11,111 nucleotides of DNA. Origin: Helicobacteraceae bacterium. GTDB lineage: Bacteria; Campylobacterota; Campylobacteria; Campylobacterales; Sulfurimonadaceae. A program made the translations under genes and the position numbers. Where the stretch lies: assembly GCA_030613795.1 (NCBI GenBank), contig JAUWLG010000024.1, positions 1 to 11,111 on the forward strand. Direction: 5' to 3'. Positions 1 to 11,111 of the stretch are shown piece by piece; positions within the stretch are counted from its first letter, which is position 1, and each line of letters opens with the position of its first letter. Below the pieces are notes generated by a model. The model was not told where the DNA came from, did not search any database, and was given only the letters and a program-made list of their open reading frames with translations.

Positions 1-17
1 GAATAAAAAGGCAAATT

Positions 18-947
18 ATGGATTACAGTAAGAAAAAAAGAGCATCTGATCAGCGTGCTAAGAACAAAAAAGAAGAGGGCAGAGCGAAGGTTAGAGCAAA
101 AGCGTATGCCAAAGCCGATGCAAAACGTCCAGCAAGAGGAAAAAAGAAGCCTGACTCTGCCTCTGATGAGTTTATGGTTGAAGGTGAATCACGAGCACCA
201 AGAAGCAGTGGTGAGATGGAAAAAGCCTATAAACTTTTAGCCCTTCAAGAGTCTATCTCCAACTCTCAGGCAAAGGCATTGATCGACCGTGGTCTGGTCT
301 ATGTAGCGAACCGTAAGGTAACAGTCGCTCGTGGTGAACTTCCGGTAAAGACATCATTCAATGTCCAAGAGATCGCTAAAGCCAAGATCATCTATGAAGA
401 CAATGATCTTTTGGTAGTCGATAAACCTGCCTTTCTTAATACCGATGAAGTCGAACGTCAATATCCTGATGCGCAATTGCTTCACCGTTTAGATCGTGAG
501 ACAAGCGGAGTACTGATCTTGGTCAAAGATGAAGAGTATCGTCTCAAAGCGATCGGCGAGTTTAAACGCAACAGAGTCTATAAAGAGTATACGGCGTGGG
601 TTGAGGGGATGTTTATCGATGAGACAGAGATCGACAAACCGATCTTGACTGAGAAACGCCACAACAAGGCTTTTTCTAAGATCTCACCTAAGGGAAAACC
701 TGCCCACACAACTGTTACACCGGTAGAAGTGGTGGGTAAGTACTCGAAAGTCAAAGTGGTCATTCGTGAAGGCCGTACGCATCAGATCCGTTGTCACCTG
801 CGCTCTATAGGTTTTCCTATCTCCGGTGATGAGCAGTATGGTGGAAGACGTGCTAAACGTGTGATGCTGCATGCCCGTAAAGTCGAACTACTTGGCAAGA
901 CCTTTATAGCAGACGAACCAAAGATCTTTGCCCACTACTCATCGTAA
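18..947 (+). CDS. RluA-family RNA pseudouridine synthase with basic N-terminal tail
   Basis: Isomerises a uridine in RNA, probably 23S rRNA, to pseudouridine; the exact target site cannot be read from sequence. The RluA-family catalytic motif HRLDRETSG is at residues 156-164, with Asp159 as the expected nucleophile. The second conserved block, GRTHQIRCHL followed by GDEQYGG, covers about 252-276, and MLHA is at about 283-286. An S4-like RNA-binding segment lies at about 70-105. Residues 1 to about 48 are an unusually Lys/Arg/Ala-rich, low-complexity and probably disordered tail, longer than in typical family members. The ATG at 18 follows an AAGG Shine-Dalgarno-like sequence; the TAA at 4-6 could be the stop of an upstream gene, but too little is visible to call it. 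From memory the equivalent gene in C. jejuni (Cj0708) directly precedes ffh; here two extra genes intervene. The family is secure; the substrate is not. Confidence 0.9.
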   Translation: MDYSKKKRASDQRAKNKKEEGRAKVRAKAYAKADAKRPARGKKKPDSASDEFMVEGESRAPRSSGEMEKAYKLLALQESISNSQAKALIDRGLVYVANRKVTVARGELPVKTSFNVQEIAKAKIIYEDNDLLVVDKPAFLNTDEVERQYPDAQLLHRLDRETSGVLILVKDEEYRLKAIGEFKRNRVYKEYTAWVEGMFIDETEIDKPILTEKRHNKAFSKISPKGKPAHTTVTPVEVVGKYSKVKVVIREGRTHQIRCHLRSIGFPISGDEQYGGRRAKRVMLHARKVELLGKTFIADEPKIFAHYSS

Positions 948-1081
948 ACAGTACCACGGTTTTAGACGCCTTCTTAAGGTACCTGAAAAAAGAGTATGTT
1001 AAGATTGGCGATTAATAATTCAGAGGCATATTTGAGATCCATATAGGGTTATTCAACGTGCCCTTATACCGAAAGTGAGCC

Positions 1082-2359
1082 ATGAAGCTTTTTCTTCTAC
1101 TATATTCTTTACTCCTGTCATCCACGCTATATGCCCAGCAGACTTTACAAGAGATACGGGTTGAAGAGAATCTTTTTATTATGAAGATTATTGGTGTTGT
1201 TATCTTGATCTTAATTGTAATGCCTATTATCTTGCGTCAATTGAGAAATCTTGCTCCAACAGCCGAACGACATATACCTCTTCCTGTTGAGAAAGAGACA
1301 AACCCGAAAAAAAAGAAAAAATCTCTAAAGCCTGAAGCTGACGAAGAAGATGAAACACCAAGAGATCCACTGGATATAGCTTTGGAAAGTCTCTTTAATG
1401 AACACAGAGTCCCCCAAGAAAAAAGAGAAAGTTTTGCCCCTCTTTACAGACGATATCTGGAACTTAAAATGGGAAAAGTGGAGATCAAAACCGGTTCGTT
1501 TGACTTTAACACCGTCTTGGACGCCGTGATGACAAAAGTGCATACCCTTCAAAGCGATCGTAATTTTGAGATCGTCTTTGATATGGATGCCAATGTCCCA
1601 TCACAGCTTATCGGTGATGCAGAGCGTATGGAAGAGACGCTGTTCTTTTTGATCCAAAATGTGGTTTTGAAAAGCAGCTCGTATCTTATTGAAATTCAAA
1701 TCAAGCGATTAAACCTAGGTGACGGCGCTCTCCATTTAGAATTTTATATCTCGTATGACAAAGACAATTATCAAGAAGAGAAGCTCGATATCTTCACGCC
1801 TTTTACAGAGGGTGCAACACAGACAGGTCTTGAACTTTACTTGGCAAAAGAGTACGCTCGTCTGATGAACGGTGATGTGACTTTTGAGCCAGAGGGTGAA
1901 AATGACAGTGCCTTTATGGTTAATCTAAAACTCTTCATGCCAAATCCAAGTGAGATGCGACACTATCGTCTCCCGTCTAAAACGATGATAGGTCACTCTG
2001 TTTTAATCGTTGATGACCATACTGCCTCTGCCCTAGCGATACAAAAAATGTTTGAATATTTCAAAAACGAGGTGGATGTACTCTCATCTAAAGAGCTGTT
2101 TTCAGCTTTGGAGATGCTGGAGGACTATGATATTGTAGTCATTCAAGAACGCTATTTTGCAAAACACTTGAACGCAAAACTTGAAGCGATCAAGTCAAAA
2201 AGAGTCATTAAAGCTGTTTCACTAAATAAAAACGAAGTGTTTAAGCATAGTGATGCAGAGACGAAAGCGCTGCTTGATGGTGAGATGTCCAAGCCTGTGA
2301 CGGTTCAAAAAGTCTTTGATCTTCTTGTGTCGCTTTACCAAGAGAAACAAGAAACCTAG
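1082..2359 (+). CDS. Membrane-anchored pseudo-hybrid histidine kinase (degenerate HK plus receiver)
   Basis: Not a family I can name. Residues 1-18 look like a signal peptide (cleavage near LYA/QQ). A transmembrane helix covers about 33-51, followed by a Lys-rich then acidic linker (55-95), so the rest should be cytoplasmic. Residues 118-285 resemble the end of a HisKA domain plus HATPase_c: the segment around KMGKVEIKTGSFDF (129-142) matches the SKIEAGK-type linker, and VPSQLIGD (172-179) and Asn193 recall the start of the ATPase fold and the N-box. The DxGxG and GxGxG boxes are not intact, and no SHExRTP-type H-box is visible. Residues 305-420 form a receiver-like domain: LIVDD (Asp311/312) and KP (Lys404) are kept, but the phospho-acceptor position in YDIVVIQ is Gln355. 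Catalytic activity is therefore unlikely and a scaffold or sensor role is inferred. The ATG follows GTGAGCC, a weak ribosome site. The gene lies 17 bp before its paralogue. The 134-bp gap upstream shows no convincing promoter. Confidence 0.75.
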   Translation: MKLFLLLYSLLLSSTLYAQQTLQEIRVEENLFIMKIIGVVILILIVMPIILRQLRNLAPTAERHIPLPVEKETNPKKKKKSLKPEADEEDETPRDPLDIALESLFNEHRVPQEKRESFAPLYRRYLELKMGKVEIKTGSFDFNTVLDAVMTKVHTLQSDRNFEIVFDMDANVPSQLIGDAERMEETLFFLIQNVVLKSSSYLIEIQIKRLNLGDGALHLEFYISYDKDNYQEEKLDIFTPFTEGATQTGLELYLAKEYARLMNGDVTFEPEGENDSAFMVNLKLFMPNPSEMRHYRLPSKTMIGHSVLIVDDHTASALAIQKMFEYFKNEVDVLSSKELFSALEMLEDYDIVVIQERYFAKHLNAKLEAIKSKRVIKAVSLNKNEVFKHSDAETKALLDGEMSKPVTVQKVFDLLVSLYQEKQET

Positions 2360-2376
2360 ATCTTAGGGCCTCACTT

Positions 2377-4464
2377 ATGATCGAGATGTCAGAAGATCTT
2401 CTTCAGATGGGTGTTCTCGAACTCATTTATGCCTTTATACTAACGCTGTTTATATTTTTGTCAGGTTACTTCTATAACAAGTCTCGTGAGAGTAGTCGTG
2501 AGGTAAAGAGGCTTAAACTCTCTCTGGAAGAGGCAGAGCTGGATAGGGCCAGTCTAATGGCAAACAGCACGGTGGAACCAGAAGTCTCTGTCAGTGAGCA
2601 GGAAGTACTCAAAACAGAGGCCGGTGCCAATAACACAATATTGCAGCAAGAGTTGGAAAACTATCTTCTCAGAGAGGAAGAAAAAGCGCAGGAAGCCGCT
2701 CAAAACTTTGTTGAGTTAAGTGCTGATTTTGTTGATTTTTTAAAAGTGAAATCCGGAAAGATAAAACTAAAAGAGAGCGCCTTTACACTTAATGATATGC
2801 TTGATGATCTGGCAAAAAGTCTGCGCTCACAGATGGCACGTACAAAGGTTGAGTTGATCTTCGATATTGATACGAAGGTGCCGCCAAAACTTATAGGCGA
2901 CAAACGCCATATCCGTCTGCTGCTTTTTAACATTCTCTCAAACATTATTCATCATCAGTCTGAGACTCAGATCGTACTGCACGCTAAAAGTGTTAAAGAG
3001 GGAGATAGCCTCAGAGTGCTGTTTAGTGTACAAGGTTGTATGTTGGATGAGGGTGTTGGCAGCCTGGACTCTCTTTTTGTACCTTTTTCAGAAAGTGCTT
3101 TTGATGAGAGTATGCAGATCGAGCTTTACATAGCTAGAGAACTTTCTCGAATGATGCAGGGTGATATAGCGTTAGGCAAAGACCAAATTGGCAAAAACGA
3201 ATTTAAGATTGAACTTGTTTTGGCTGAATCAAACCCTGAAGATAAGAGGTTTTACCGACTTCCATCACGCAGTATGATCGGCCATAAGATATTGATCGTC
3301 AACGAAAATAAAATGCTGGCAAAGTCTATTCAAAGTATGTATGAGTATTTTAAAAATGAGGTGACACTGCTTCTCTCTTCCGAATTCGCGTCAAAGCCGG
3401 AGATCATTAGTGAGTTTCATACTGTTGTCATCGACAAAGATGCCTTAGATCTCTCTCTTGTAGAGAAGCTCCGTGCTATTAAAAGAGCACATAAGGTCAA
3501 TGTCGTCGCACTCTTGCATGCGAAAGATGAAGTAGACTATCAAGTTCCTCTCGGTGCAGTCGATCAGCTTCTGATCAAACCTATAACAATTCAGAATGTC
3601 TTTAACACGATCATCGCCCTTGAAGAGAGAAAAGAGATAGGCGAAATGAGTAAGTCGTTTGAAAAGAGTGTTCAATCGCAGTTTAAAGGCGAGGCCAATA
3701 AAAAGATCTTTGAGGACTTTTACGGCAGACGTATCTTGGTCATAGAAAACGAGCGTGTTAATCAAAAGATGCTTTTTTCTCTTCTGCGAAGATCGGGTGT
3801 TAACCTCTCTCTGGCCCAAAGTGCTCAAGAGAGTCTGTGGATGTTTGAGAAGATGCCGGTATTTGACATCATTCTTTTAAGCAGTGAGATCGACAGTGAA
3901 AGCACGCTGCGCTTTTCGCAAAAGATCCGCAATCTCAGCCGCTACAAGGGTGTCCCTATCATCATTATGTCAAAAGAGAGTCGAGGTGCTGATGGTTCTG
4001 GGGCTGACCAGTTTATAACCAAACCGGTGCAGGCAGGTGCTCTTTTCACTCTCTTTAACCATTACCTCAGTAAAGAGGATCTTCTTGATGAAAACAGGCA
4101 GTATTTCCCTAAAACAGCATTTATCAATACGGTCTCTTTGGCTGCTCGTGACGGCTTTGAGATGGCAAGTTTTGATGAAGAGCTTTATGCTGATATTTTA
4201 CGAGAGTTTATTGCACTCTATAGTGATTCGGCTCAAAAGATGAATAGTGTTTTAGTCAAGGATGATCTGCAAGAGCTTAAACAGGTCTGTCTGGATGTCA
4301 AAGGTGTCGCTGCAAATATTGGGGCGTTCAGACTATCCAGTATCACAGCACAGATCCATGCTGCTATCTCTAAAGGCAAGGCGAAAGACCTTATGGCTTT
4401 GATGAATCAGTACCAGCCGGAGCTTGAGAGAGTGAAAAAGGAAATTCAAGTTTATTTGAAATAG
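2377..4464 (+). CDS. Membrane-anchored pseudo-hybrid kinase (degenerate HK-REC-REC-HPt)
   Basis: Paralogue of the preceding gene; both share YRLPSxxMIGH and EYFKNEV at the junction and start of the first receiver. There is one N-terminal transmembrane helix (about 12-32) without a cleavable signal, then a basic, coiled-coil-like stretch (35-115). Residues 110-285 are a degenerate kinase core: VKSGKIKL linker, VPPKLIGD, N-box Asn189 kept, G-boxes lost, no H-box. Receiver 1 (304-412) has NE in place of the acidic pair (309-310), keeps Asp353 at the phospho-acceptor position and Lys400, and lacks the conserved Thr/Ser. Receiver 2 (452-562) has EN for the acidic pair, Ser502 for the phospho-acceptor, and keeps Lys549. 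Residues 585-695 resemble an HPt domain, but the AHxLKG site reads CLDVKG, so His is Leu639. The layout is that of a BarA-type hybrid kinase stripped of phosphotransfer residues. ATG 2377 was chosen; ATG 2386 (Met4) is also possible. Probably co-transcribed with the gene before it. Confidence 0.78.
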   Translation: MIEMSEDLLQMGVLELIYAFILTLFIFLSGYFYNKSRESSREVKRLKLSLEEAELDRASLMANSTVEPEVSVSEQEVLKTEAGANNTILQQELENYLLREEEKAQEAAQNFVELSADFVDFLKVKSGKIKLKESAFTLNDMLDDLAKSLRSQMARTKVELIFDIDTKVPPKLIGDKRHIRLLLFNILSNIIHHQSETQIVLHAKSVKEGDSLRVLFSVQGCMLDEGVGSLDSLFVPFSESAFDESMQIELYIARELSRMMQGDIALGKDQIGKNEFKIELVLAESNPEDKRFYRLPSRSMIGHKILIVNENKMLAKSIQSMYEYFKNEVTLLLSSEFASKPEIISEFHTVVIDKDALDLSLVEKLRAIKRAHKVNVVALLHAKDEVDYQVPLGAVDQLLIKPITIQNVFNTIIALEERKEIGEMSKSFEKSVQSQFKGEANKKIFEDFYGRRILVIENERVNQKMLFSLLRRSGVNLSLAQSAQESLWMFEKMPVFDIILLSSEIDSESTLRFSQKIRNLSRYKGVPIIIMSKESRGADGSGADQFITKPVQAGALFTLFNHYLSKEDLLDENRQYFPKTAFINTVSLAARDGFEMASFDEELYADILREFIALYSDSAQKMNSVLVKDDLQELKQVCLDVKGVAANIGAFRLSSITAQIHAAISKGKAKDLMALMNQYQPELERVKKEIQVYLK

Positions 4465-4698
4465 TAGGCGTTTTTTTAGACTAGTTATTCTGCTCCAGGT
4501 ATAGAATTTATAAGCTTTTTGTTTTGGGTAACTTACTTATTGAGTTTTTCACTTTATTGACTACCCTTTCTGCTTTGTGTAGGCAAAGAAGAAAACTGAC
4601 AGACCTCTATCTAAAGACATTCAAAAGAGCGGTCCACAAAAAATCTTTTTGGATAAAGGCTTGGCAATAAAATAAAAGCCACAAAAGGAGTTGTTCTA

Positions 4699-4721
4699 GG
4701 AGAAACACATAGAGTTTCTCC
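4699..4721. repeat. Perfect 8-bp inverted repeat upstream of the ffh -10 box
   Basis: GGAGAAAC (4699-4706) and GTTTCTCC (4714-4721) are exact reverse complements around a 7-base spacer. The right arm occupies the -35 region relative to TATAAT at 4737. It could be an operator for a dimeric regulator, or an RNA hairpin at the end of the upstream transcript; no T-run follows immediately, which argues against an ordinary terminator. Confidence 0.5.
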
Positions 4722-4736
4722 AAAGTAAGTTTTTGC

Positions 4737-4742
4737 TATAAT
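4737..4742 (+). promoter_or_regulatory. Probable sigma-70 -10 box for ffh
   Basis: A consensus TATAAT lies just after a TTTTTGC stretch. Transcription would start near 4749 and give a leader of about 50 bases containing AGGAG at 4789-4793. Campylobacterota promoters often have a strong -10 and T-rich upstream DNA instead of a clear -35, and this fits. Position and sequence are seen; function is inferred. Confidence 0.6.
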
Positions 4743-4798
4743 CCGCTACTTTTTCTGGCAGTAGAACTGTCCAGAGCATATGACATAGAGGAGATAAT

Positions 4799-6142
4799 GT
4801 GTTTGATACATTGACAGATTCGTTTACAGCGGCCATAAAAAAGATCCGTTTTCATGATGATGAAAAGGCACTTAAAAAAGCCCTAGGTGAGCTTAAAAAG
4901 TCACTGTTAAAAGCTGATGTACACCATGGTGTTGTACGTTCACTGATTGCAGAAGTCGAGCACAAGACCAAGACAGCAGGGATTGGTAAAGACCAATTTC
5001 TAGATGCTATGCGTGAGACACTTCATGATATTTTAAAAGTTGATGGTAATCAGGGCTTTGTCTTCGCTCCAAACCCACCAACTGTTATCTTAATGACAGG
5101 TCTTCAAGGTTCTGGTAAGACAACAACAACGGGTAAACTTGCTGTTTTTCTTAAAGAACAGAAGAAGAAAAAAGTTCTGATCATCGCAGCTGACCTCCAG
5201 CGTCTTGCAGCAGTTGAGCAGTTACGCCAGATCACAGCGAAGATCGAAGTAGATCTATTTGCAGACGAAGCAGGTAAGCCGGTAGAGGTTGTTAAGGCAG
5301 GTCTTGAACAAGCACGTGCCAATCTTTATGATGTTGTACTGATCGATACGGCCGGTCGTTTGGCAATCGATGAAGCCTTGATGGGTGAGCTTAAAGAGGT
5401 GAAAGAGGTAGCAAACCCTTCTGAGATCTTCTATGTTGCTGACTCGATGACAGGTCAAGATGCAGTTCGTACAGCGACAAGCTTTAAAGAGCAGATCGGT
5501 ATCGACGGGGTTATCTTAAGTAAGTATGATGGTGACTCTAAGGGTGGTGTAGCCCTTGGTCTGGCTTCTCAGGTCAACGTACCGCTTCGTTTCATTGGTA
5601 GTGGTGAGAAGATGGAAGATCTTGAGATCTTCTTGCCTGAGCGTATTGTCAACCGTCTTATGGGCTTTGGTGATATCGAAGGACTTGCTGAGAGAACAGC
5701 AAATGTCATCGATGAGAAAAAAGCGAAAGAACTTACTAGAAAGATCAAAAAAGGGAAGTTCAACTTCAATGACTTTCTAGAGCAGATGGAGTCGATGAAA
5801 AAGATGGGCTCTATGAAGTCCATTATGGGCATGATCCCGGGTATGGGTGACATGTCTAAAGCGCTTAAAAACTTTGACATGGAGAACTCAAAAGAGATCC
5901 TTCAGATCAAAGCGATGGTCGGTTCGATGACCAAAAAAGAGCGTGAAGACCCAGACCTTCTTAACAACAGCCGTAAACTGCGTATTGCAACAGGTTGTGG
6001 TATGAGCCAAATGGAAGTCAATCGTGTCTTGAAGCAGTTTAAAAATGCAGCAAAGATGGCGAAAAAGTTCTCTGGTAAAAAAGGGATGCAAGACCTTCAA
6101 GCGATGATGGGTCAGATGAAGGGCGGCGGCTTTCCACGTTAA
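4799..6142 (+). CDS. ffh: Signal recognition particle GTPase Ffh (SRP54)
   Basis: Binds signal sequences on nascent membrane and secretory proteins together with the 4.5S SRP RNA, and docks with FtsY to deliver ribosomes to the Sec translocon. The N domain spans about 1-90. The G domain (about 95-295) shows the P-loop GLQGSGKTT (101-109), DLQRLAA (132-138), DTAGR (183-187) and SKYDGDSKGG (241-250, guanine specificity). The Met-rich M domain (about 325-447) carries the SRP-RNA-binding segment RIATGCG (395-401) followed by VNRVLKQF. Most Ffh proteins have GSG in that motif; here the middle residue is Cys400. At 447 residues the length is normal. The start is GTG 4799 with AGGAG five bases upstream; the ATG at 4797 overlaps it in another frame and gives no SRP54 N-terminus. 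It appears to have its own promoter at 4737. No SRP RNA gene was recognised in the window. Confidence 0.97.
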   Translation: MFDTLTDSFTAAIKKIRFHDDEKALKKALGELKKSLLKADVHHGVVRSLIAEVEHKTKTAGIGKDQFLDAMRETLHDILKVDGNQGFVFAPNPPTVILMTGLQGSGKTTTTGKLAVFLKEQKKKKVLIIAADLQRLAAVEQLRQITAKIEVDLFADEAGKPVEVVKAGLEQARANLYDVVLIDTAGRLAIDEALMGELKEVKEVANPSEIFYVADSMTGQDAVRTATSFKEQIGIDGVILSKYDGDSKGGVALGLASQVNVPLRFIGSGEKMEDLEIFLPERIVNRLMGFGDIEGLAERTANVIDEKKAKELTRKIKKGKFNFNDFLEQMESMKKMGSMKSIMGMIPGMGDMSKALKNFDMENSKEILQIKAMVGSMTKKEREDPDLLNNSRKLRIATGCGMSQMEVNRVLKQFKNAAKMAKKFSGKKGMQDLQAMMGQMKGGGFPR

Positions 6143-6221
6143 TGTGGCGTAAATGGGGTATTCGTTTCACTCATATAAGCGAAATTCGTAAATAGAGGGG
6201 ATTTTTTCTTTTTTTCCGTTT

Positions 6222-6253
6222 GAGGCGAAGCCGAACCGAAAGCGAAGCGAACC
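6222..6253 (+). repeat. Imperfect tandem 16-bp repeat (GAxGCGAAGCCGAACC-like)
   Basis: The unit GAGGCGAAGCCGAACC (6222-6237) is followed directly by GAAAGCGAAGCGAACC (6238-6253). The two are similar but not identical and best align with a small gap. The segment is more GC-rich than its surroundings and follows a T-tract. It resembles a dispersed intergenic repeat rather than coding sequence, but copies elsewhere in the genome cannot be checked here. Confidence 0.45.
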
Positions 6254-6261
6254 CATTCCCG

Positions 6262-6293
6262 GCTAAAGGTTTGGAGATTTTCAAATCTTTAGC
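6262..6293 (+). repeat. Stem-loop, 12-bp stem
   Basis: GCTAAAGGTTTG (6262-6273) pairs with CAAATCTTTAGC (6282-6293) through 11 Watson-Crick pairs and one G-U, with loop GAGATTTT. It lies 120 bases after the ffh stop and is followed by TATACTT, not a T-run, so it is a poor intrinsic terminator. It may still stabilise the ffh 3' end or form part of a larger folded RNA. Confidence 0.55.
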
Positions 6294-6353
6294 TATACTT
6301 CCACTTCGAAAAGACATTTTCTTAAATAATCCCTCTGTGATTTGAAAATGAGT

Positions 6354-6417
6354 AGCTGGTCACAAAGTTTAAAATGAGTCTCTATAGAGAAATTCATTTT
6401 AACCTTTTGTGCCGGTT
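6354..6417 (+). repeat. Long nested inverted repeat
   Basis: The core is TTAAAATGA (6369-6377) with TCATTTTAA (6394-6402), a perfect 9-bp match. Inside it sits a perfect 12-bp palindrome TCTCTATAGAGA (6379-6390). Outside it CACAAAG (6361-6367) pairs with CTTTTGTG (6404-6411) with one bulge, and AGCTGG (6354-6359) pairs with CCGGTT (6412-6417) using G-U pairs. Such multi-level symmetry is unlikely by chance. It could be a folded RNA or the terminal repeats of a small non-autonomous element. Confidence 0.55.
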
Positions 6418-6541
6418 ACATGTGTACGTCCACATAATGGCGATTAGAGGAAAGTAATTCTTTCAGTGAAATGCTTGCAGAGCACTGACTTCCAGAAACT
6501 TTCCCCCTAATCTTTATTTATTGACTACAGATGTAACCAGC
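6411..6541 (+). repeat. Inverted repeat pair enclosing the 6442-6512 hairpin
   Basis: GCCGGTTACAT (6411-6421) matches the reverse complement of ATGTAACCAGC (6531-6541) at 10 of 11 positions. A second direct copy, GCTGGTCACA (6355-6364), matches the same 3' segment at 9 of 10. The 3' copy, just before the rpsP ribosome site, could therefore pair with either upstream copy but not both, and the upstream copies can also pair with each other's surroundings. This is the pattern of a conformational switch, although function is inferred only. Confidence 0.5.
6442..6512 (+). repeat. Long interrupted stem-loop before rpsP
   Basis: Reading inward, GATTAG (6442-6447) pairs with CTAATC (6507-6512), GGAAAGT (6449-6455) with ACTTTCC (6498-6504), TTCT (6458-6461) with AGAA (6494-6497), and TCAGTG (6463-6468) with CACTGA (6483-6488). 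That is 23 base pairs separated by small internal loops, with a 14-base apical loop. TTTATTTATT follows, so it might act as an attenuator or the 3' end of a small RNA. No known RNA family is recognised. Confidence 0.5.
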
Positions 6542-6553
6542 AATTGGTATATT
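6521..6553 (+). promoter_or_regulatory. Possible promoter of the rpsP operon
   Basis: TGGTATATT at 6546-6553 resembles an extended -10 box. TTGACT at 6521-6526 resembles a -35, but the spacer of 21 bases is too long for an ideal pair. Starting from here the transcript would begin near 6560 and leave almost no leader before AGGAA (6560-6564) and the ATG at 6570, so the real promoter may lie upstream of the structured region. Confidence 0.3.
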
Positions 6554-6569
6554 AAAAACAGGAACTTAC

Positions 6570-6797
6570 ATGACAGTTATTAGACTAACTCGTATGGGTC
6601 GTAAAAAACAGCCTTTCTACCGTATCGCGGTAACAGATTCTCGCAAACGTCGTGATGGTGGTTGGATCGAACTTATCGGTCACTACAACCCTATGAACGA
6701 TGAGAAGACACTAGTAGTAGACAACGAACGTCTTGACTACTGGTTAAGTGTTGGTGCTCAAATGAGTAGCCGCGTTAAAAAAATTACTGGTAGATAG
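6570..6797 (+). CDS. rpsP: 30S ribosomal protein S16
   Basis: Small-subunit protein that binds 16S rRNA early in 30S assembly. The N-terminus [18 protein letters not shown], the block DSRKRRDGG (23-31) and IELIGHYNP (33-41) are diagnostic for the family, and 75 residues is the short form common in this phylum. AGGAA at 6560-6564 precedes the ATG. It is the first gene of a tight operon with khpA, rimM, trmD and rplS, and is preceded by an unusually long structured non-coding region that could carry autoregulation. Confidence 0.97.
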
Positions 6798-6799
6798 TC

Positions 6800-7039
6800 A
6801 TGGTCACTGATTTCGTCGAACAATTTGCCAAAATGATCGCTAACTACCCTGAAGATATTCAGGTCGAGGCGCATGAAGGTAATGACATGATCGAGATCGT
6901 TTTACATGCTAACCAGGCCGATGTAGGTAAACTTATCGGTAAAGAGGGCAAGATGATTGGTGCGATAAAAACGCTTATATCGGGCTGTAAAGCTAAAGAT
7001 GGTAAAAGTTACCGAATCAATGTCGAAGCAATCAACTAA
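6800..7039 (+). CDS. khpA: KH-domain RNA-binding protein KhpA (YlqC/UPF0109)
   Basis: Small cytoplasmic RNA-binding protein; in other bacteria KhpA pairs with KhpB/Jag and acts as an RNA chaperone. The 79 residues are almost entirely one KH domain, with the RNA-binding GxxG loop as GKEG (47-50) inside GKLIGKEGK (43-51). It starts two bases after the rpsP stop with only a weak ribosome site, so translation is probably coupled to rpsP. Its end overlaps the start of rimM by 20 bases. The position between rpsP and rimM is the conserved one for this family. Confidence 0.9.
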   Translation: MVTDFVEQFAKMIANYPEDIQVEAHEGNDMIEIVLHANQADVGKLIGKEGKMIGAIKTLISGCKAKDGKSYRINVEAIN

Positions 7040-7562
7040 AGACCTGCTTCATATCGCTACCTTAGGCCGCACTGTCGGTCTATACGGTGACATGAAGTTT
7101 CATGACAAAAGTGACTTTCCAGAGCAGTTTGTAGCTGGGGCGACCTTCTTAAAAGGTGATGGAAAACCACTGACTATCCATAGTGTCAATGAAGCCAGAG
7201 GAACGATTATGATCCAAGGTTTCGAGAATATGGAGAGTGCCAAGAAACTGACCAACGTCAAACTCTACACCACAATGCAAGCAACACGTGAGCAGTGTGA
7301 ACTGGAAGAGGGTGAGTACTTTTGGTTTGATATCGTAGGCTGTACAGTCTATGAAGATGACAAAAAGCTTGGTGTTGTGAAAGAGGTAGAGCGTATTACG
7401 ATCACGAATTACTTGAGTATTGTGACTGACGATGCTCTTGTAAATGAGGGTGCAAGTAAAAGCTTTTTGGTCCCGTACCAAGAAGCCTTTGTTGTAAAGA
7501 CAGATATTGACAACAAACGCATTGATGTTATTGATGCGGTCGATATTTTAGAAGCCTCATAG
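7020..7562 (+). CDS. rimM: Ribosome maturation factor RimM
   Basis: Assists maturation of the 30S head by binding S19 and acting with 16S rRNA processing. The N-terminal RimM domain begins with IATLGRTVGLYGDMKF (12-27), the counterpart of the usual GKIVGxHGLKGE block. The C-terminal PRC-barrel begins at GEYFWFDIVG (98-107) and includes FLVPYQEAFV (149-158) and VDILEAS at the end. An in-frame ATG at 6999 would add MVKVTES, but those residues lie deep within khpA. The ATG at 7020 starts close to the conserved domain and leaves a modest 20-base overlap, so it was preferred. Translation is likely coupled to khpA, as no strong ribosome site is visible. Confidence 0.93.
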   Translation: MSKQSTKDLLHIATLGRTVGLYGDMKFHDKSDFPEQFVAGATFLKGDGKPLTIHSVNEARGTIMIQGFENMESAKKLTNVKLYTTMQATREQCELEEGEYFWFDIVGCTVYEDDKKLGVVKEVERITITNYLSIVTDDALVNEGASKSFLVPYQEAFVVKTDIDNKRIDVIDAVDILEAS

Positions 7563-7571
7563 GTTAGACGT

Positions 7572-8273
7572 TTGCGTTTTACTTATGTCACACTCTTTCA
7601 AAATTTGATAGAGGGGTATTTTCAAGATTCGATTCTCAAAAGAGCTATGGAAAAAGAGCTCTTTGCGGTCGATTTTGTCAATCCGCGTGACTTTACTACT
7701 AACAAACACCTAAAAGTCGATGATACGGCTACAGGTGGGGGCGCTGGTATGGTGATGACACCGCAACCGCTCTTTGATGCACTTAGTGCACTCAAAGAGC
7801 AGGGCGATGTTCACATCATCTTTACCACTCCTGTTGGTAAGCCTTTTCGGCAAAATGATGCTAAACGTTTAGCATCAAAAGGTCATATTGCCTTTGTAAG
7901 TGGTCGTTACGAAGGGATTGACGAACGTGTTATCGAGACATTCGCGGATGAGCTCTTTAGCATTGGTGATTATGTTTTGACAGGTGGGGAACTGCCATCG
8001 TTGGTGATGAGTGATGCGATCGCTCGAAACATCGATGGTGTCCTTGGCAACATCGAATCTCTCGACATCGAGAGCTTCGAAACGCCACTTTTAGAAGCAC
8101 CTAGCTTCTCAAAACCAGCTTTATATGAGGGACGTGCGGTCCCATCAGAATATGTAAAGGGAAATCACAGTAAAATAGCCGCACTAAAATTTGCCATGTC
8201 TGAAGCGAAGACCTCGTTTTTCAGACCTGAGCAGCTTATAAAGCACAAAAAAAGGACATCTTATGAGAAATAA
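7572..8273 (+). CDS. trmD: tRNA (guanine-N1-)-methyltransferase TrmD
   Basis: Uses S-adenosylmethionine to methylate N1 of G37 in tRNAs, which prevents +1 frameshifting. The SPOUT/trefoil-knot signatures are present: TGGGAGMVM (54-62), [10 protein letters not shown] (111-120), [13 protein letters not shown] (130-142) and GNHSKI (197-202). Arg152 corresponds to the conserved arginine of the VxRxxPGVLG segment. The catalytic Asp of the DSF motif (Asp169 in E. coli) is Glu167 here (ESF), and the usual YTRP reads FSKP. TTG 7572 is the start because it gives the family N-terminus RFTYVTLF and AGG lies about 8 bases upstream; no ATG or GTG fits better. It begins 9 bases after rimM and overlaps rplS by 11 bases. 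Confidence 0.95.
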
Positions 8274-8619
8274 GTACATTGAAAATTTCGAAGCTGCACA
8301 AGTTGCATCGAAAACTATTCCTGAATTCCGTGCCGGTGATACTCTACGTATAGCTGTAACAATTAAAGAAGGCGACAAAACTCGTGTTCAAAGTTATGAG
8401 GGTGTATGTATTGCTAAACGCGGTCAAGGTACAGGTCAAACTATTACTGTACGTAAAATCGGCGCTAACGGTGTTGGCATCGAGCGTATTTTCCCAATTT
8501 ACACTGACTCTATCAACGAGATCAAAGTACTTCGTCGCGGTCGTGTGCGTCGTGCTAAACTTTTCTACCTTCGTGATCTTGCAGGTAAAAAAGCACGTAT
8601 CAAAGAGCTACGCAAGTAG
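8263..8619 (+). CDS. rplS: 50S ribosomal protein L19
   Basis: Large-subunit protein at the 30S-50S interface. Diagnostic segments are FRAGDTLRI (about 23-31), [13 protein letters not shown] (about 43-55), [15 protein letters not shown] (about 71-85), [25 protein letters not shown] toward the end written here as [14 protein letters not shown] then GKKARIKE. At 118 residues the length is normal. AAGGA at 8252-8256 lies inside the end of trmD and the ATG overlaps trmD, so the two are translationally coupled. It is the last gene of the operon; an intrinsic terminator follows ten bases after the stop. Confidence 0.97.
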
Positions 8620-8628
8620 TTCTCTTTT

Positions 8629-8661
8629 TAACTGCCTTTTTGGCAGTTATCTCTTCTTCTT
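8629..8661 (+). terminator. Intrinsic terminator after rplS
   Basis: TAACTGCC (8629-8636) and GGCAGTTA (8642-8649) form a perfect 8-bp stem with a TTTTT loop, followed by the pyrimidine-rich TCTCTTCTTCTTTCT. It begins ten bases after the rplS stop codon, exactly where the operon should end. The tail contains C residues, so termination may be incomplete. Confidence 0.85.
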
Positions 8662-8702
8662 TCTAACTTCCAAATACTACCCTTTTTTTAAACTTTTCTT
8701 AG

Positions 8703-8708
8703 TATAAT
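8703..8708 (+). promoter_or_regulatory. Possible -10 box for the M20/RimK-like operon
   Basis: TATAAT follows a T-rich stretch (8680-8700), the usual Campylobacterota promoter style. Transcription would start near 8715 and give a leader of about 140 bases. That leader contains the palindrome TACTA-AAA-TAGTA (8746-8758), which could be a regulator site. A closer promoter cannot be excluded, because several AT-rich hexamers lie between 8730 and 8760. Confidence 0.4.
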
Positions 8709-8854
8709 TATCTACTTATTCTGTTGCATTTTTGTAATATATTTTTACTAAAATAGTATCTGTAAATTATTTATGTGTACCACATCAATGAGTGAAACGA
8801 ATACACGTATCTGCGCGTCTATCATTCACCTAATAAATTGTGTAAAGGATTACT

Positions 8855-9964
8855 GTGTCTTATCTGCTCGACCTCAAAAAAGTTGTAAATATTAACTCGT
8901 TTACGAAGAACAAACATGGGGTTGATCAGGTAGGTCAGGTGTTTGACCAATGGCTGAGTGCACTTGGCTTTGAGGTCACTGTTTACAAACGTGAACTGAT
9001 CGGTGAACACCGACTCTACCGCTCAAAGCGTAAAGAGGGGAAAAAGCTTCTTCTTCTTGGCCACTTGGACACGGTTTTTCCTGAGGGCAAGTTTGAGATC
9101 TTCAGTGAAGATGATGAATGGGTCTATGGACCTGGTGTCTGTGACATGAAAGGGGGCAATATTGTCGCCCTTGAAGCGCTCCGTCTTCTCAAAGATGAAA
9201 ACGTTGAGATCAGCAATGTTGATATTCTTTTTGTCAGTGATGAAGAGACAGGCAGTGATGACTCTAAACTGCTGACAGCGCAGTTGGCACCGGAGTATGA
9301 CTACTGTCTGGTCTATGAAGCTGCAGGTGAGAATGCAGAAGTAGTAACTGGACGAAAAGGTGTGGGCACCTTTTTTGTGGACATAACAGGTGTAGCTAAA
9401 CATGCCGGAAACTTCTATGCTGATGGTGTAGATGCCAACCTTGAAGCGGCTCACAAGCTACAAAAACTGGTGGCACTGACAGATCTCTCTAAAGGGACAA
9501 CGGTCAATGTCGGTAAGTTAGAAGGGGGTATTGGTGCCAACACCATCTCTCCGCATGCACATCTGACTTTTGAGCTGCGTTATAAAACAACAGCTGAACG
9601 TGATCGTGTACTGGCTTCGATCGATACAATCGTTGCAACATCTTATGTTGAAGGAACACGTTCCATTTTGAGCGGCGGTATTCAACGCGATGTGATGATG
9701 AGTTCACAAGAGGCTTTGGACTTTGTTCAGGACATTGAGCGTATTACCGGTCAGAGACTTCCGACTGAGGAACGAGGCGGTGTAAGTGATGCTAACATCG
9801 TTAGCTCTTGCGGTGTTATTACCCTTGACGGGCTTGGCCCTTTTGGGGATGGTGACCACACCGTTCATGAGCGCGCGAACAAAAAAAGTTTTGAAGAGCG
9901 CATTGAACTTTCAAGAGAGTTGATAGCTTATTTTATAAAAAATTCTGGGTTTAAGGAGCAGTAG
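8855..9964 (+). CDS. M20-family metallopeptidase, glutamate-carboxypeptidase (CPG2) type
   Basis: A two-zinc hydrolase expected to remove a C-terminal amino acid, often glutamate, from a peptide or amide-linked substrate; the true substrate is unknown. The metal and catalytic residues line up with the M20 family: GHLDTVFP with His70 and Asp72, Asp97 in GVCDMKGG, the Glu130/Glu131 pair in DEETGS, Glu155 in YEAAG, and His335 in GDHTVHE. His183 in AKHAG marks the inserted dimerisation domain. At 369 residues it is slightly short compared with secreted CPG2, and with no signal peptide it should be cytoplasmic. GTG 8855 follows AAAGGA by five bases and gives a full family N-terminus. It begins an operon with the RimK-like ligase only two bases downstream, which suggests opposing hydrolysis and ligation on related molecules. 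Confidence 0.88.
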   Translation: MSYLLDLKKVVNINSFTKNKHGVDQVGQVFDQWLSALGFEVTVYKRELIGEHRLYRSKRKEGKKLLLLGHLDTVFPEGKFEIFSEDDEWVYGPGVCDMKGGNIVALEALRLLKDENVEISNVDILFVSDEETGSDDSKLLTAQLAPEYDYCLVYEAAGENAEVVTGRKGVGTFFVDITGVAKHAGNFYADGVDANLEAAHKLQKLVALTDLSKGTTVNVGKLEGGIGANTISPHAHLTFELRYKTTAERDRVLASIDTIVATSYVEGTRSILSGGIQRDVMMSSQEALDFVQDIERITGQRLPTEERGGVSDANIVSSCGVITLDGLGPFGDGDHTVHERANKKSFEERIELSRELIAYFIKNSGFKEQ

Positions 9965-9966
9965 CA

Positions 9967-10893
9967 ATGGCAGTAGCGGAATGTATAGATTGTGATCGTA
10001 AGGTTGGTATATGGATGTATCAAAACGGTGGTGGCCCTGAGATAGAGCAGAAGATCATTTTAAAACTGCTTGATCGCGGCATTAACTCTGTTACCGGACT
10101 TGATCTTCGTTTTGCAGAGGGTTCAAAAGATGGGATCTTCTGTAAGGGTACCAACATGAATGAACTTGATGCCTTTTTCTCTTACAATGCAGGTGAGCAG
10201 ACCGTTGCTCAGGTCTACATGTATCAGACACTTAGTGAGTTCATTCCGACACTTAACAACTACAGGTCATTTGCTCTTGCTGAAGACAAGTTCCAGTCTA
10301 ACATGGTCTTGGCAAAGGCCGGTGTTAGAACATCAGATTTTTACCTCTGTCATAAAGAGGACATGAGTGGAGTGAACAAGCAGTTTGATAAATGGAACAA
10401 CAAGATGGTCTATAAGCCTATCGATGGCTGGGGCGGAAACGGTATGGCGCTTATTGAGAGCCAACTTATGTTTGACACCTTGATGCCGTTTATCAATAAA
10501 AGCGACGCGCGTAATGTCTATATAGAACGTTTTATTAAAAATGATTACTCTGATTTCCGTATTGATATCGTAGATGGCGAGTTCGTTGCTTGTTACGGTC
10601 GTAAAGCGAGTGGTCGTGACTGGCGTACCAACATCACCTCAGGCGGCAGTGTCATTATGCGTGAAGCCAATGATGAGATCATCGCTTTAGCTAAAAAAGC
10701 AACAAAAGCACTAGGTCTTGAGATAGGCGGTGTAGACATCTTGTATGATGAAGAGAGAGAAGAGTATGTTGTTCTTGAAGTGAATGGCATCCCTGCTTTT
10801 GCAACACCGGACCAAGAGGCGATGGGTCTTGACTTTAACGACAGAAAAATAGAGTTGATCGTCAACATGATCGATCGCATAACAAAAAAATAG
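9967..10893 (+). CDS. RimK-like ATP-grasp carboxylate-amine ligase
   Basis: ATP-grasp enzymes of the RimK group join an amino acid, commonly glutamate, to a carboxylate through an acyl-phosphate. Residues 1-100 form the preATP-grasp domain. ATP-binding features are Lys108 in AEDKF, Lys150 in VYKP, the glycine loop GWGGNG (154-159) and Glu187 in YIERF. The RimK-type core SGRDWRTNITSGG (215-227) contains Arg220 and Asn222, and metal ligands appear as Asp257 (GGVDIL) and Glu271/Asn273 (LEVN). Its 308 residues are normal for the family, but the N-terminus, with CIDC at 6-9, is not one I recognise, and the acceptor cannot be named. AAGGAG (9953-9958) lies inside the end of the M20 gene. The next gene starts ten bases after its stop, so at least three genes are co-transcribed. 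Confidence 0.85.
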   Translation: MAVAECIDCDRKVGIWMYQNGGGPEIEQKIILKLLDRGINSVTGLDLRFAEGSKDGIFCKGTNMNELDAFFSYNAGEQTVAQVYMYQTLSEFIPTLNNYRSFALAEDKFQSNMVLAKAGVRTSDFYLCHKEDMSGVNKQFDKWNNKMVYKPIDGWGGNGMALIESQLMFDTLMPFINKSDARNVYIERFIKNDYSDFRIDIVDGEFVACYGRKASGRDWRTNITSGGSVIMREANDEIIALAKKATKALGLEIGGVDILYDEEREEYVVLEVNGIPAFATPDQEAMGLDFNDRKIELIVNMIDRITKK

Positions 10894-10903
10894 GGAGAAA
10901 ACA

Positions 10904-11111
10904 ATGGCAAAGCAGAAACTACCAAAACTGGGTTTACTATATATGGACTACGTCCTGCGCTTTTTTGACAAGAGCAACTTTAAGGGCTGGCCGGACAAGA
11001 TCGAGGTGGTAACGTACCACTGGAAAAATGATAAAACACGTTTTATCAATGAAGTACGTCGTAAAAACATCGATGTCCTGGTCGGTAATATTCCGGCAAC
11101 AGCCTATGAGA
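10904..11111 (+). CDS. Unrecognised protein, 5' part only (cut by window edge)
   Basis: The frame is open from ATG 10904 to the end of the window (69 codons), with AGGGAG at 10892-10897 as ribosome site and ten bases of spacing from the ligase gene. The visible part alternates predicted strands and helices: KLGLLYMDYV, KIEVVTYHW, a basic helix around FINEVRRKN, then IDVLVGNIP. That resembles the Rossmann-like N-terminal domain of ATP-grasp enzymes, so a second ligase is possible, but no catalytic region is in view and I do not assign a function. Tight spacing places it in the same operon as the M20 peptidase and the RimK-like ligase. Confidence 0.7.
   Translation, partial: MAKQKLPKLGLLYMDYVLRFFDKSNFKGWPDKIEVVTYHWKNDKTRFINEVRRKNIDVLVGNIPATAYE

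Follow-up and report, generated by a model that had tools for sequence, protein, structure and literature searches.

Two adjacent genes that have the outline of hybrid histidine kinases, and lack most of the residues through which such kinases pass phosphate, raise the question of whether they are relics of an active pair or are kept for a role without catalysis. The genes, A and B, lie in an 11,111-nucleotide stretch of DNA from a Helicobacteraceae bacterium of the Sulfurimonadaceae, a relative of sulfur oxidizers (GenBank assembly GCA_030613795.1, contig JAUWLG010000024.1, positions 1 to 11,111; hereafter the window), which is contig C134 of a draft genome (G000; 314 contigs, 72% complete). 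We favor, at a probability of roughly 0.6, the reading that A and B encode pseudo-hybrid histidine kinases anchored in the membrane, which serve as non-catalytic partners biasing another two-component protein. An earlier note, made from the letters of this DNA, had described the two genes as tandem open frames, and both frames are open as described:

1082..2359, forward strand: gene A, pseudo-hybrid kinase of 425 residues
1505..1945, forward strand: CA-like (HATPase_c) domain of A, residues about 142–288, with N-box Asn193, G1 missing and Glu251 in the G2 box
1946..1996, forward strand: linker of A, residues 289–305, containing MRHYRLPSKTMIGH
1997..2341, forward strand: receiver-like domain of A, residues 306–420, with Asp311, Asp312, Gln355, Ser380 and Lys404, from residue tallies and model secondary structure
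2377..4464, forward strand: gene B, pseudo-hybrid kinase of 695 residues
2767..3234, forward strand: CA-like domain of B, residues about 131–286, with N-box Asn189, G1 missing and Glu249 in the G2 box
3286..3630, forward strand: REC1 of B, residues 304–418, with Asn309, Glu310, Asp353 (Asp or Glu) and Lys401; domain end poorly modelled
3727..4077, forward strand: REC2 of B, residues 451–567, with Ser502, which varies among orthologues
4129..4461, forward strand: HPt of B, residues 585–695, with Leu639 in place of His; Pfam E-value of 1.4e-4, under the cut-off

Domains and residues of genes A and B

Gene A encodes an N-terminal helix and a membrane helix, a disordered linker where DHp helix 1 is expected, a CA-like domain, a YRLPS linker and an Asp-less receiver. 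Gene B encodes a membrane helix, a disordered linker at the same expected place, a helix at residues 88–126, and then CA-like, REC1, REC2 and HPt domains. HATPase_c scored above its Pfam cut-off of 26.4 bits in both proteins (31 bits for A, 29.1 bits for B), as did Response_reg in REC2 of B (43 bits; cut-off 30.2), and the HPt of B fell just below (22.4 bits; cut-off 24.6). Among the structural matches listed, the predicted CA folds of A and B resemble the CA domains of kinases, and the tied entries include RetS and DivL. The receiver of A scored only 13.9 bits; in the AlphaFold2 model of A, residues 306–419 form five alternating strands and helices. REC1 of B gave no separate Pfam match, and the model has a predicted local distance difference test (pLDDT) score under 50 at residues 380–440. 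The hybrid-kinase fold order proposed in the earlier note holds, with the HPt of B under its cut-off, the receiver of A assigned from the model and the end of REC1 of B poorly modelled.

We aligned A with orthologues in a set of 79 rows and B in a set of 46; both sets came from protein searches and include the window and fragments, and one row for A is the window's own database copy. In the CA-like domains, G1 is gone and the second Gly of the G2 box is Glu in 76 of 79 A rows and in 44/44 B rows, so the ATP-lid boxes are broken in both proteins, as had been claimed; Ser in place of Glu in 3/79 A rows is a partial exception. The N-box Asn is kept in 63/79 A rows and 44/44 B rows, and the F-box Phe is also unbroken. 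At the phosphosite of the A receiver, Gln355 was found in 78/78 rows, together with Asp311/Asp312 (78/78), Ser380 (77/77) and Lys404 (77/77), the last two equated by eye on the alignment with the usual Thr/Ser and Lys of receivers. The HPt site of B is Leu639 in 46/46 rows. Position 502 in REC2 varies (Ser 24, Gly 13, Asp 5 and Ala 4 of 46 rows), position 353 in REC1 is acidic in 44/46 (Asp 32, Glu 12), Lys401-Pro402 is kept in 46/46, and Asn replaces the usual acidic residue at position 309 in 29. All three phosphosite substitutions reported for this copy (Gln355, Ser502 and Leu639) are correct, and Asp at 355 and His at 639 are absent from every row examined; Ser502, however, is not conserved and, with Asp in 5/46 rows as another partial exception to fixed loss, looks like drift. 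The claim that nearly all phosphotransfer residues are gone went too far, since the N-boxes, the acidic pair of A and the REC1 Lys remain. Mean pairwise identity is highest in the linker among the six stretches of A (0.85), and mean identity in B is highest in the HPt (0.75, above all other domains) and lowest among folded domains in REC2 (0.56).

The reported lack of an H-box extends to relatives of both genes: at the column where it would align, the A and B rows in the alignment showed none. An H-box-like pattern occurs in the DHp region of 2/78 A relatives and 1/45 B relatives, compared to 15/16 rows of a control set of H-box family members (16 rows, 14 distinct sequences). Both A patterns sit at window residue 108, beyond the aligned H-box, and the single B pattern also lies outside the aligned column. 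We rejected His108 of A as a hidden phosphosite, as its column is unconserved (His 43, Arg 32 and other residues 4 of 79). A stray aligned but isolated His stands in the unconserved linker of 4/19 aligned B rows, which are two genes each listed twice. The residues aligned at the His site in 23 A rows were Glu (17), Ala (3), Lys (1), Gln (1) and Tyr (1), the six kinds shown for B include no Tyr, and the region is unconserved in both.

Selection, distribution and flanking genes

We calculated ratios of nonsynonymous to synonymous substitution rates (dN/dS) by the Nei-Gojobori method, and pairs with usable dS gave values of 0.06–0.18. Between the window and genome G060, the ratio was 0.096 for A and 0.114 for B (no neighbor gene lies on the G060 contig for comparison), and between G049 and G055 it was 0.056 for A, 0.183 for B and 0.045 for the pseudouridylate synthase gene upstream. 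Between the window and G007, it was 0.063 for A (dS 3.05, near saturation), 0.047 for the downstream ffh gene and 0.090 for the pseudouridylate synthase gene; dS was saturated for B in this pair and for A in the pairs of the window with G035 and G025. The main substitutions are common to orthologues 50% identical and more. Because dN/dS is low and the substitutions are fixed, these results argue for purifying selection and not decay, in keeping with the earlier suggestion of selection for a non-catalytic role. Conservation is high in the linker, REC1 and HPt and low at the expected DHp helix 1, a stretch predicted to be disordered.

We sampled 151 genomes of the family. All 8 genomes of the window's genus carry an A orthologue, with scores of about 634 bits or more, and the best score listed among the other 143 genomes was 256 bits. 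Orthologues of B (over 1000 bits) adjoin A in 5/8 genus genomes. The genes on either side are:

18..947, forward strand: RNA pseudouridylate synthase (rlu-like), upstream flank
4799..6142, forward strand: ffh, signal recognition particle protein, downstream flank; NCBIfam TIGR00959 above cut-off

A and B look like an insertion in the window's genus because an RluA-family pseudouridine synthase frame directly adjoins ffh, with no A/B-type gene between, at four of nine ffh loci from other genera (L068–L071; these frames score below the family cut-off, yet at E 1.4e-36 or better). The remaining five loci have other neighbors or none identified, and loss elsewhere is the alternative. Promoter-like sites in the window numbered 11 compared to 7.0 expected (standard deviation 2.8), terminator-like sites numbered 3 compared to 2.9 expected, and scans of the window for tRNA genes and for Rfam families at the gathering threshold gave no matches. 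Further along, at 8855–10893, an M20 peptidase gene is directly followed by a RimK-like ATP-grasp gene, and similar frames stand in the same order at two other loci (L040 and L041).

A hybrid kinase family in Sulfurimonadaceae

A second locus, beside trpD in 8/8 genus genomes, encodes two proteins: C, which is kinase-like with intact ATP boxes, and D, a receiver-HPt protein; trpD was identified by NCBIfam TIGR01245 above cut-off in the window's own genome and by a similar start sequence in the other seven. The window-genome copies of C and D (L039, contig C261) lie on the minus strand at 1957–4623 (888 residues) and 4657–6333 (558 residues), respectively. Among 44 rows, C has Gly (26), Asp (6), Asn (4) or other residues (5) at the His site and His in 0/41 rows with a residue there; despite this missing phospho-accepting His, its DTG and GLG boxes are invariant (44/44 each), and its N-box is intact in 43/43. 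The REC1 phosphosite of C is Ser in 44/44 rows, REC2 keeps Asp and Lys in 44/44, and the HPt site is Leu in 42 and His in 2. D keeps its receiver motifs and lacks the HPt His in 8/8 genomes. An in-frame stop, real or an assembly error, stands in the G007 copy of D near a contig edge (L057, contig C117, first 165 bases).

Intact relatives occur in other genera. One (L050, 2069–4768) scored above the Pfam cut-offs for HisKA, HATPase_c, Response_reg and SPOR and just below that for Hpt, and its H-box, ATP boxes, REC2 Asp and HPt His are all present; another (L046, 4994–7234) is cut by the contig end. These two proteins and C differ from A and B by chemistry that is wholly or half intact and, in most cases, by a larger N-terminal segment. 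A SPOR domain in C, suspected by eye only, was not upheld by Pfam; SPOR was found in one of ten proteins in one Pfam scan (L050) and was not among the 25 of 48 Pfam families listed for 22 scanned members. Family members have in common a YRLPS-type linker and the order CA-REC1-REC2-HPt, and an EYFxNxV-like motif is present in most family sequences examined. As the YRLPS-type linker occurs in intact and eroded members alike (a stricter text pattern missed it in 16/63 rows), it is an inherited family trait. The junction motifs of A and B, put forward in the earlier note as an argument for selection, are conserved, but intact family kinases carry them too, and they are therefore no argument on their own for a new role. 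We found no paper on this family in literature searches, most of which were not aimed at it.

A tree was built from 102 rows, of which 90 differ. Each of A, B and C forms one side of a branch in it, as do the 16 H-box rows, all other rows being without an H-box. The tree joins A with B (Shimodaira–Hasegawa-like approximate likelihood-ratio support [SH-aLRT] 96) but flags a long-branch join; in leave-one-out trees, whose support values, taken after rerooting, we disregard, A adjoins some His-less trpD-type kinases and B adjoins a Sulfurovum-like group. Because leaving one out moves the other, we claim for A and B only a placement among the His-less rows. The description of the genes as a paralogous tandem pair stands as to adjacency in five of eight genomes, and simple sisterhood was not upheld. 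The minimum number of changes on the tree is at least 5 for the HPt His over 71 rows and 2 for the H-box His over 95 rows, one of the latter two being the stray linker His of B. The HPt site in 14 distinct H-box members is His in 7, another residue in 5 and unaligned in 2; since members with an intact H-box carry other HPt residues, the HPt His was lost or changed more than once in the family. No family member seen is more eroded than A and B.

Some further family members were noted. Five loci (L032, L033, L034, L036 and L038) encode proteins with an intact H-box and a replaced HPt His. At three loci in other genera, a protein with a CA-like start lies directly upstream of a His-less kinase (L044, 4943–6469; L045, 453–2345; L049, 743–2608), and these upstream proteins have no membrane helix or DHp as judged by eye. 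In a group with a Sulfurovum protein (P0199–P0208; 27–33% identical to A), the H-box is degenerate or unaligned, REC2 Asp is kept where aligned, and the HPt His is absent.

Proposed partner role and alternatives

On residues and predicted structures, A and B fit the class of pseudo-histidine kinases, which are kinase-like and lack at least one kinase function. The receiver of A, by Gln355, and REC2 of B, by Ser502 in this copy, fit pseudo-receivers, the domain itself being assigned in B by Pfam and fold and in A by model secondary structure only. Of the parts of an active hybrid kinase, the HATPase_c fold is present, and the H-box, the G1/G2 lid, the receiver Asp and the HPt His are absent, REC1 of B with Asp353 in 32/46 rows being a partial exception. 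Going by residues alone, neither conventional ATP binding nor phosphate transfer to a His is expected of A or B. They belong to the Sulfurimonadaceae hybrid kinase family, in which the His-less members lost the phospho-accepting His; in A and B, the boxes of the ATP lid and most phosphosites of the receivers and HPt are gone in addition. We propose that they act without catalysis, holding or biasing another two-component protein, and that one binding face may be the CA domain and REC1 as a unit, linked through the conserved YRLPS stretch, with the His-less HPt as a possible additional face in B. A role of this kind fits because selection best keeps the linker, REC1 and, in B, the HPt. The likeliest partners would be C and D in the same genomes or an intact hybrid kinase of the cell; C and D are first candidates on account of their ATP boxes and two receivers with intact motifs. 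HisKA matches at E ≤ 0.001 number 18 in the genome of the window and 25 in G025.

In DivL of Caulobacter, Tyr occupies the His site and PAS domains are present. Like A and B, it keeps the kinase fold (DivL 4q20 is among the structural matches listed); A and B differ from DivL in also lacking DHp helix 1 and in bearing pseudo-receivers, plus an HPt in B, and a DivL-type Tyr is a trait of neither (1/23 A rows; none among the B kinds shown). RcsD is a membrane hybrid-like protein with a His-less kinase-like core and an HPt that retains its active His; it gave a weak profile match to A (E 1.3e-4), and B differs from it by Leu at the HPt site in 46/46 rows. By analogy, partner action fits two described cases, namely DivL as a pseudo-histidine kinase stimulating another kinase, CckA (available text of PMC9430884), and the ChrS pseudokinase, which forms heterodimers with HrrS (available text of PMC9491836). 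ShkA of Caulobacter and CikA are, like A and B, hybrid kinases with a pseudo-receiver. According to the available text of PMC12632262, the pseudo-receiver of ShkA regulates how the HisKA domain in the same protein autophosphorylates; A and B, unlike ShkA, have no HisKA His to control. The same text describes the mechanisms of bacterial pseudo-receivers as still a mystery and reports that 0.9% of HisKA domains and likewise 0.9% of Hpt domains lack the His and that 2.0% of receivers lack the Asp. Given these single-site rates, joint orthologue-wide loss of phosphosites is uncommon, yet it is within the range of known pseudo-two-component proteins.

Several observations weigh against a partner role. 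The ffh-locus and trpD-locus genes are physically unlinked, and the partner idea is inferred solely from their kinship and from their presence in the same genomes. B was not found in 3/8 genus genomes, namely G025 (100% complete), G035 (93%) and G043 (82%), in which A is followed by ffh, and A and B are therefore not an obligate pair. In the comparison of the window with G007, dN was 0.192 for A compared to 0.043 and 0.091 for its neighbors. A classical four-helix kinase heterodimer is not obvious because DHp helix 1 appears lost. Finally, the N-box Asn, acidic pair, Ser and Lys retained in A, including four of five receiver residues, and Asp353/Lys401 of B could support residual metal, phosphate or ligand chemistry.

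Such residues are the basis of a reading that we consider unlikely, in which A and B handle phosphate in an unorthodox way: another kinase would phosphorylate REC1 of B at Asp353 (or Glu), and a metal or phosphate-like ligand would be bound at Gln355 by the acidic pair, Ser and Lys of A. The invariance of these four A residues and of Lys401 in B favors it, as does Asp353 in 32/46 rows; moreover, about 80% of pseudo-receivers have no acidic residue at the second acidic position (available text of PMC12632262), and A is thus unusual in keeping one. Gln355 in 78/78 rows, however, excludes Asp phosphorylation at that site of A, and in B position 353 is Glu in 12/46 rows and position 309 is Asn in 29. 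We give a similarly low chance to A and B being sensors of a small molecule or of membrane state, with a pseudo-receiver that binds a ligand as the ShkA pseudo-receiver is reported to bind c-di-GMP; the ShkA entries among the structural matches had large root-mean-square deviations (16.7 and 26.1), so the match is at best domain by domain. That A and B are decaying leftovers of an active kinase pair would accord with the drifting REC2 of B and with the three genomes in which B was not found, but this explanation is very improbable and largely refuted by dN/dS values of 0.06–0.18, by identical fixed substitutions and by an HPt more conserved than the other domains of B. In-frame stops in two A matches are the genes' own ends, as open frames of 418 residues stop there.

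The non-catalytic partner role could form part of a larger arrangement, which we put forward tentatively and as rather doubtful. In this genus, up to four proteins (A, B, C and D), none with a phosphorylatable kinase or HPt His, might be assembled at the membrane in the shape of a phosphorelay, in which two receivers would take phosphate from elsewhere, C would bind ATP, and A and B would represent permanently fixed kinase, receiver and phosphotransfer states; this would be a scaffold made wholly of His-less two-component parts.

One bacterial family thus offers a graded series, from an intact kinase through a His-less, ATP-box-intact kinase to a fully eroded pair. Sulfonitrofixus jiaomeiensis HSL3-7, which has been cultivated, carries both A and the trpD-locus pair (P0157 and P0247; cultivation described in the available text of PMC12403661). 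With this family one could ask which interfaces outlast total loss of phosphotransfer, and the signalling-kinase shape kept by A and B, with key phosphate-handling residues replaced alike in relatives, points to a maintained non-enzymatic signalling role, not decay.

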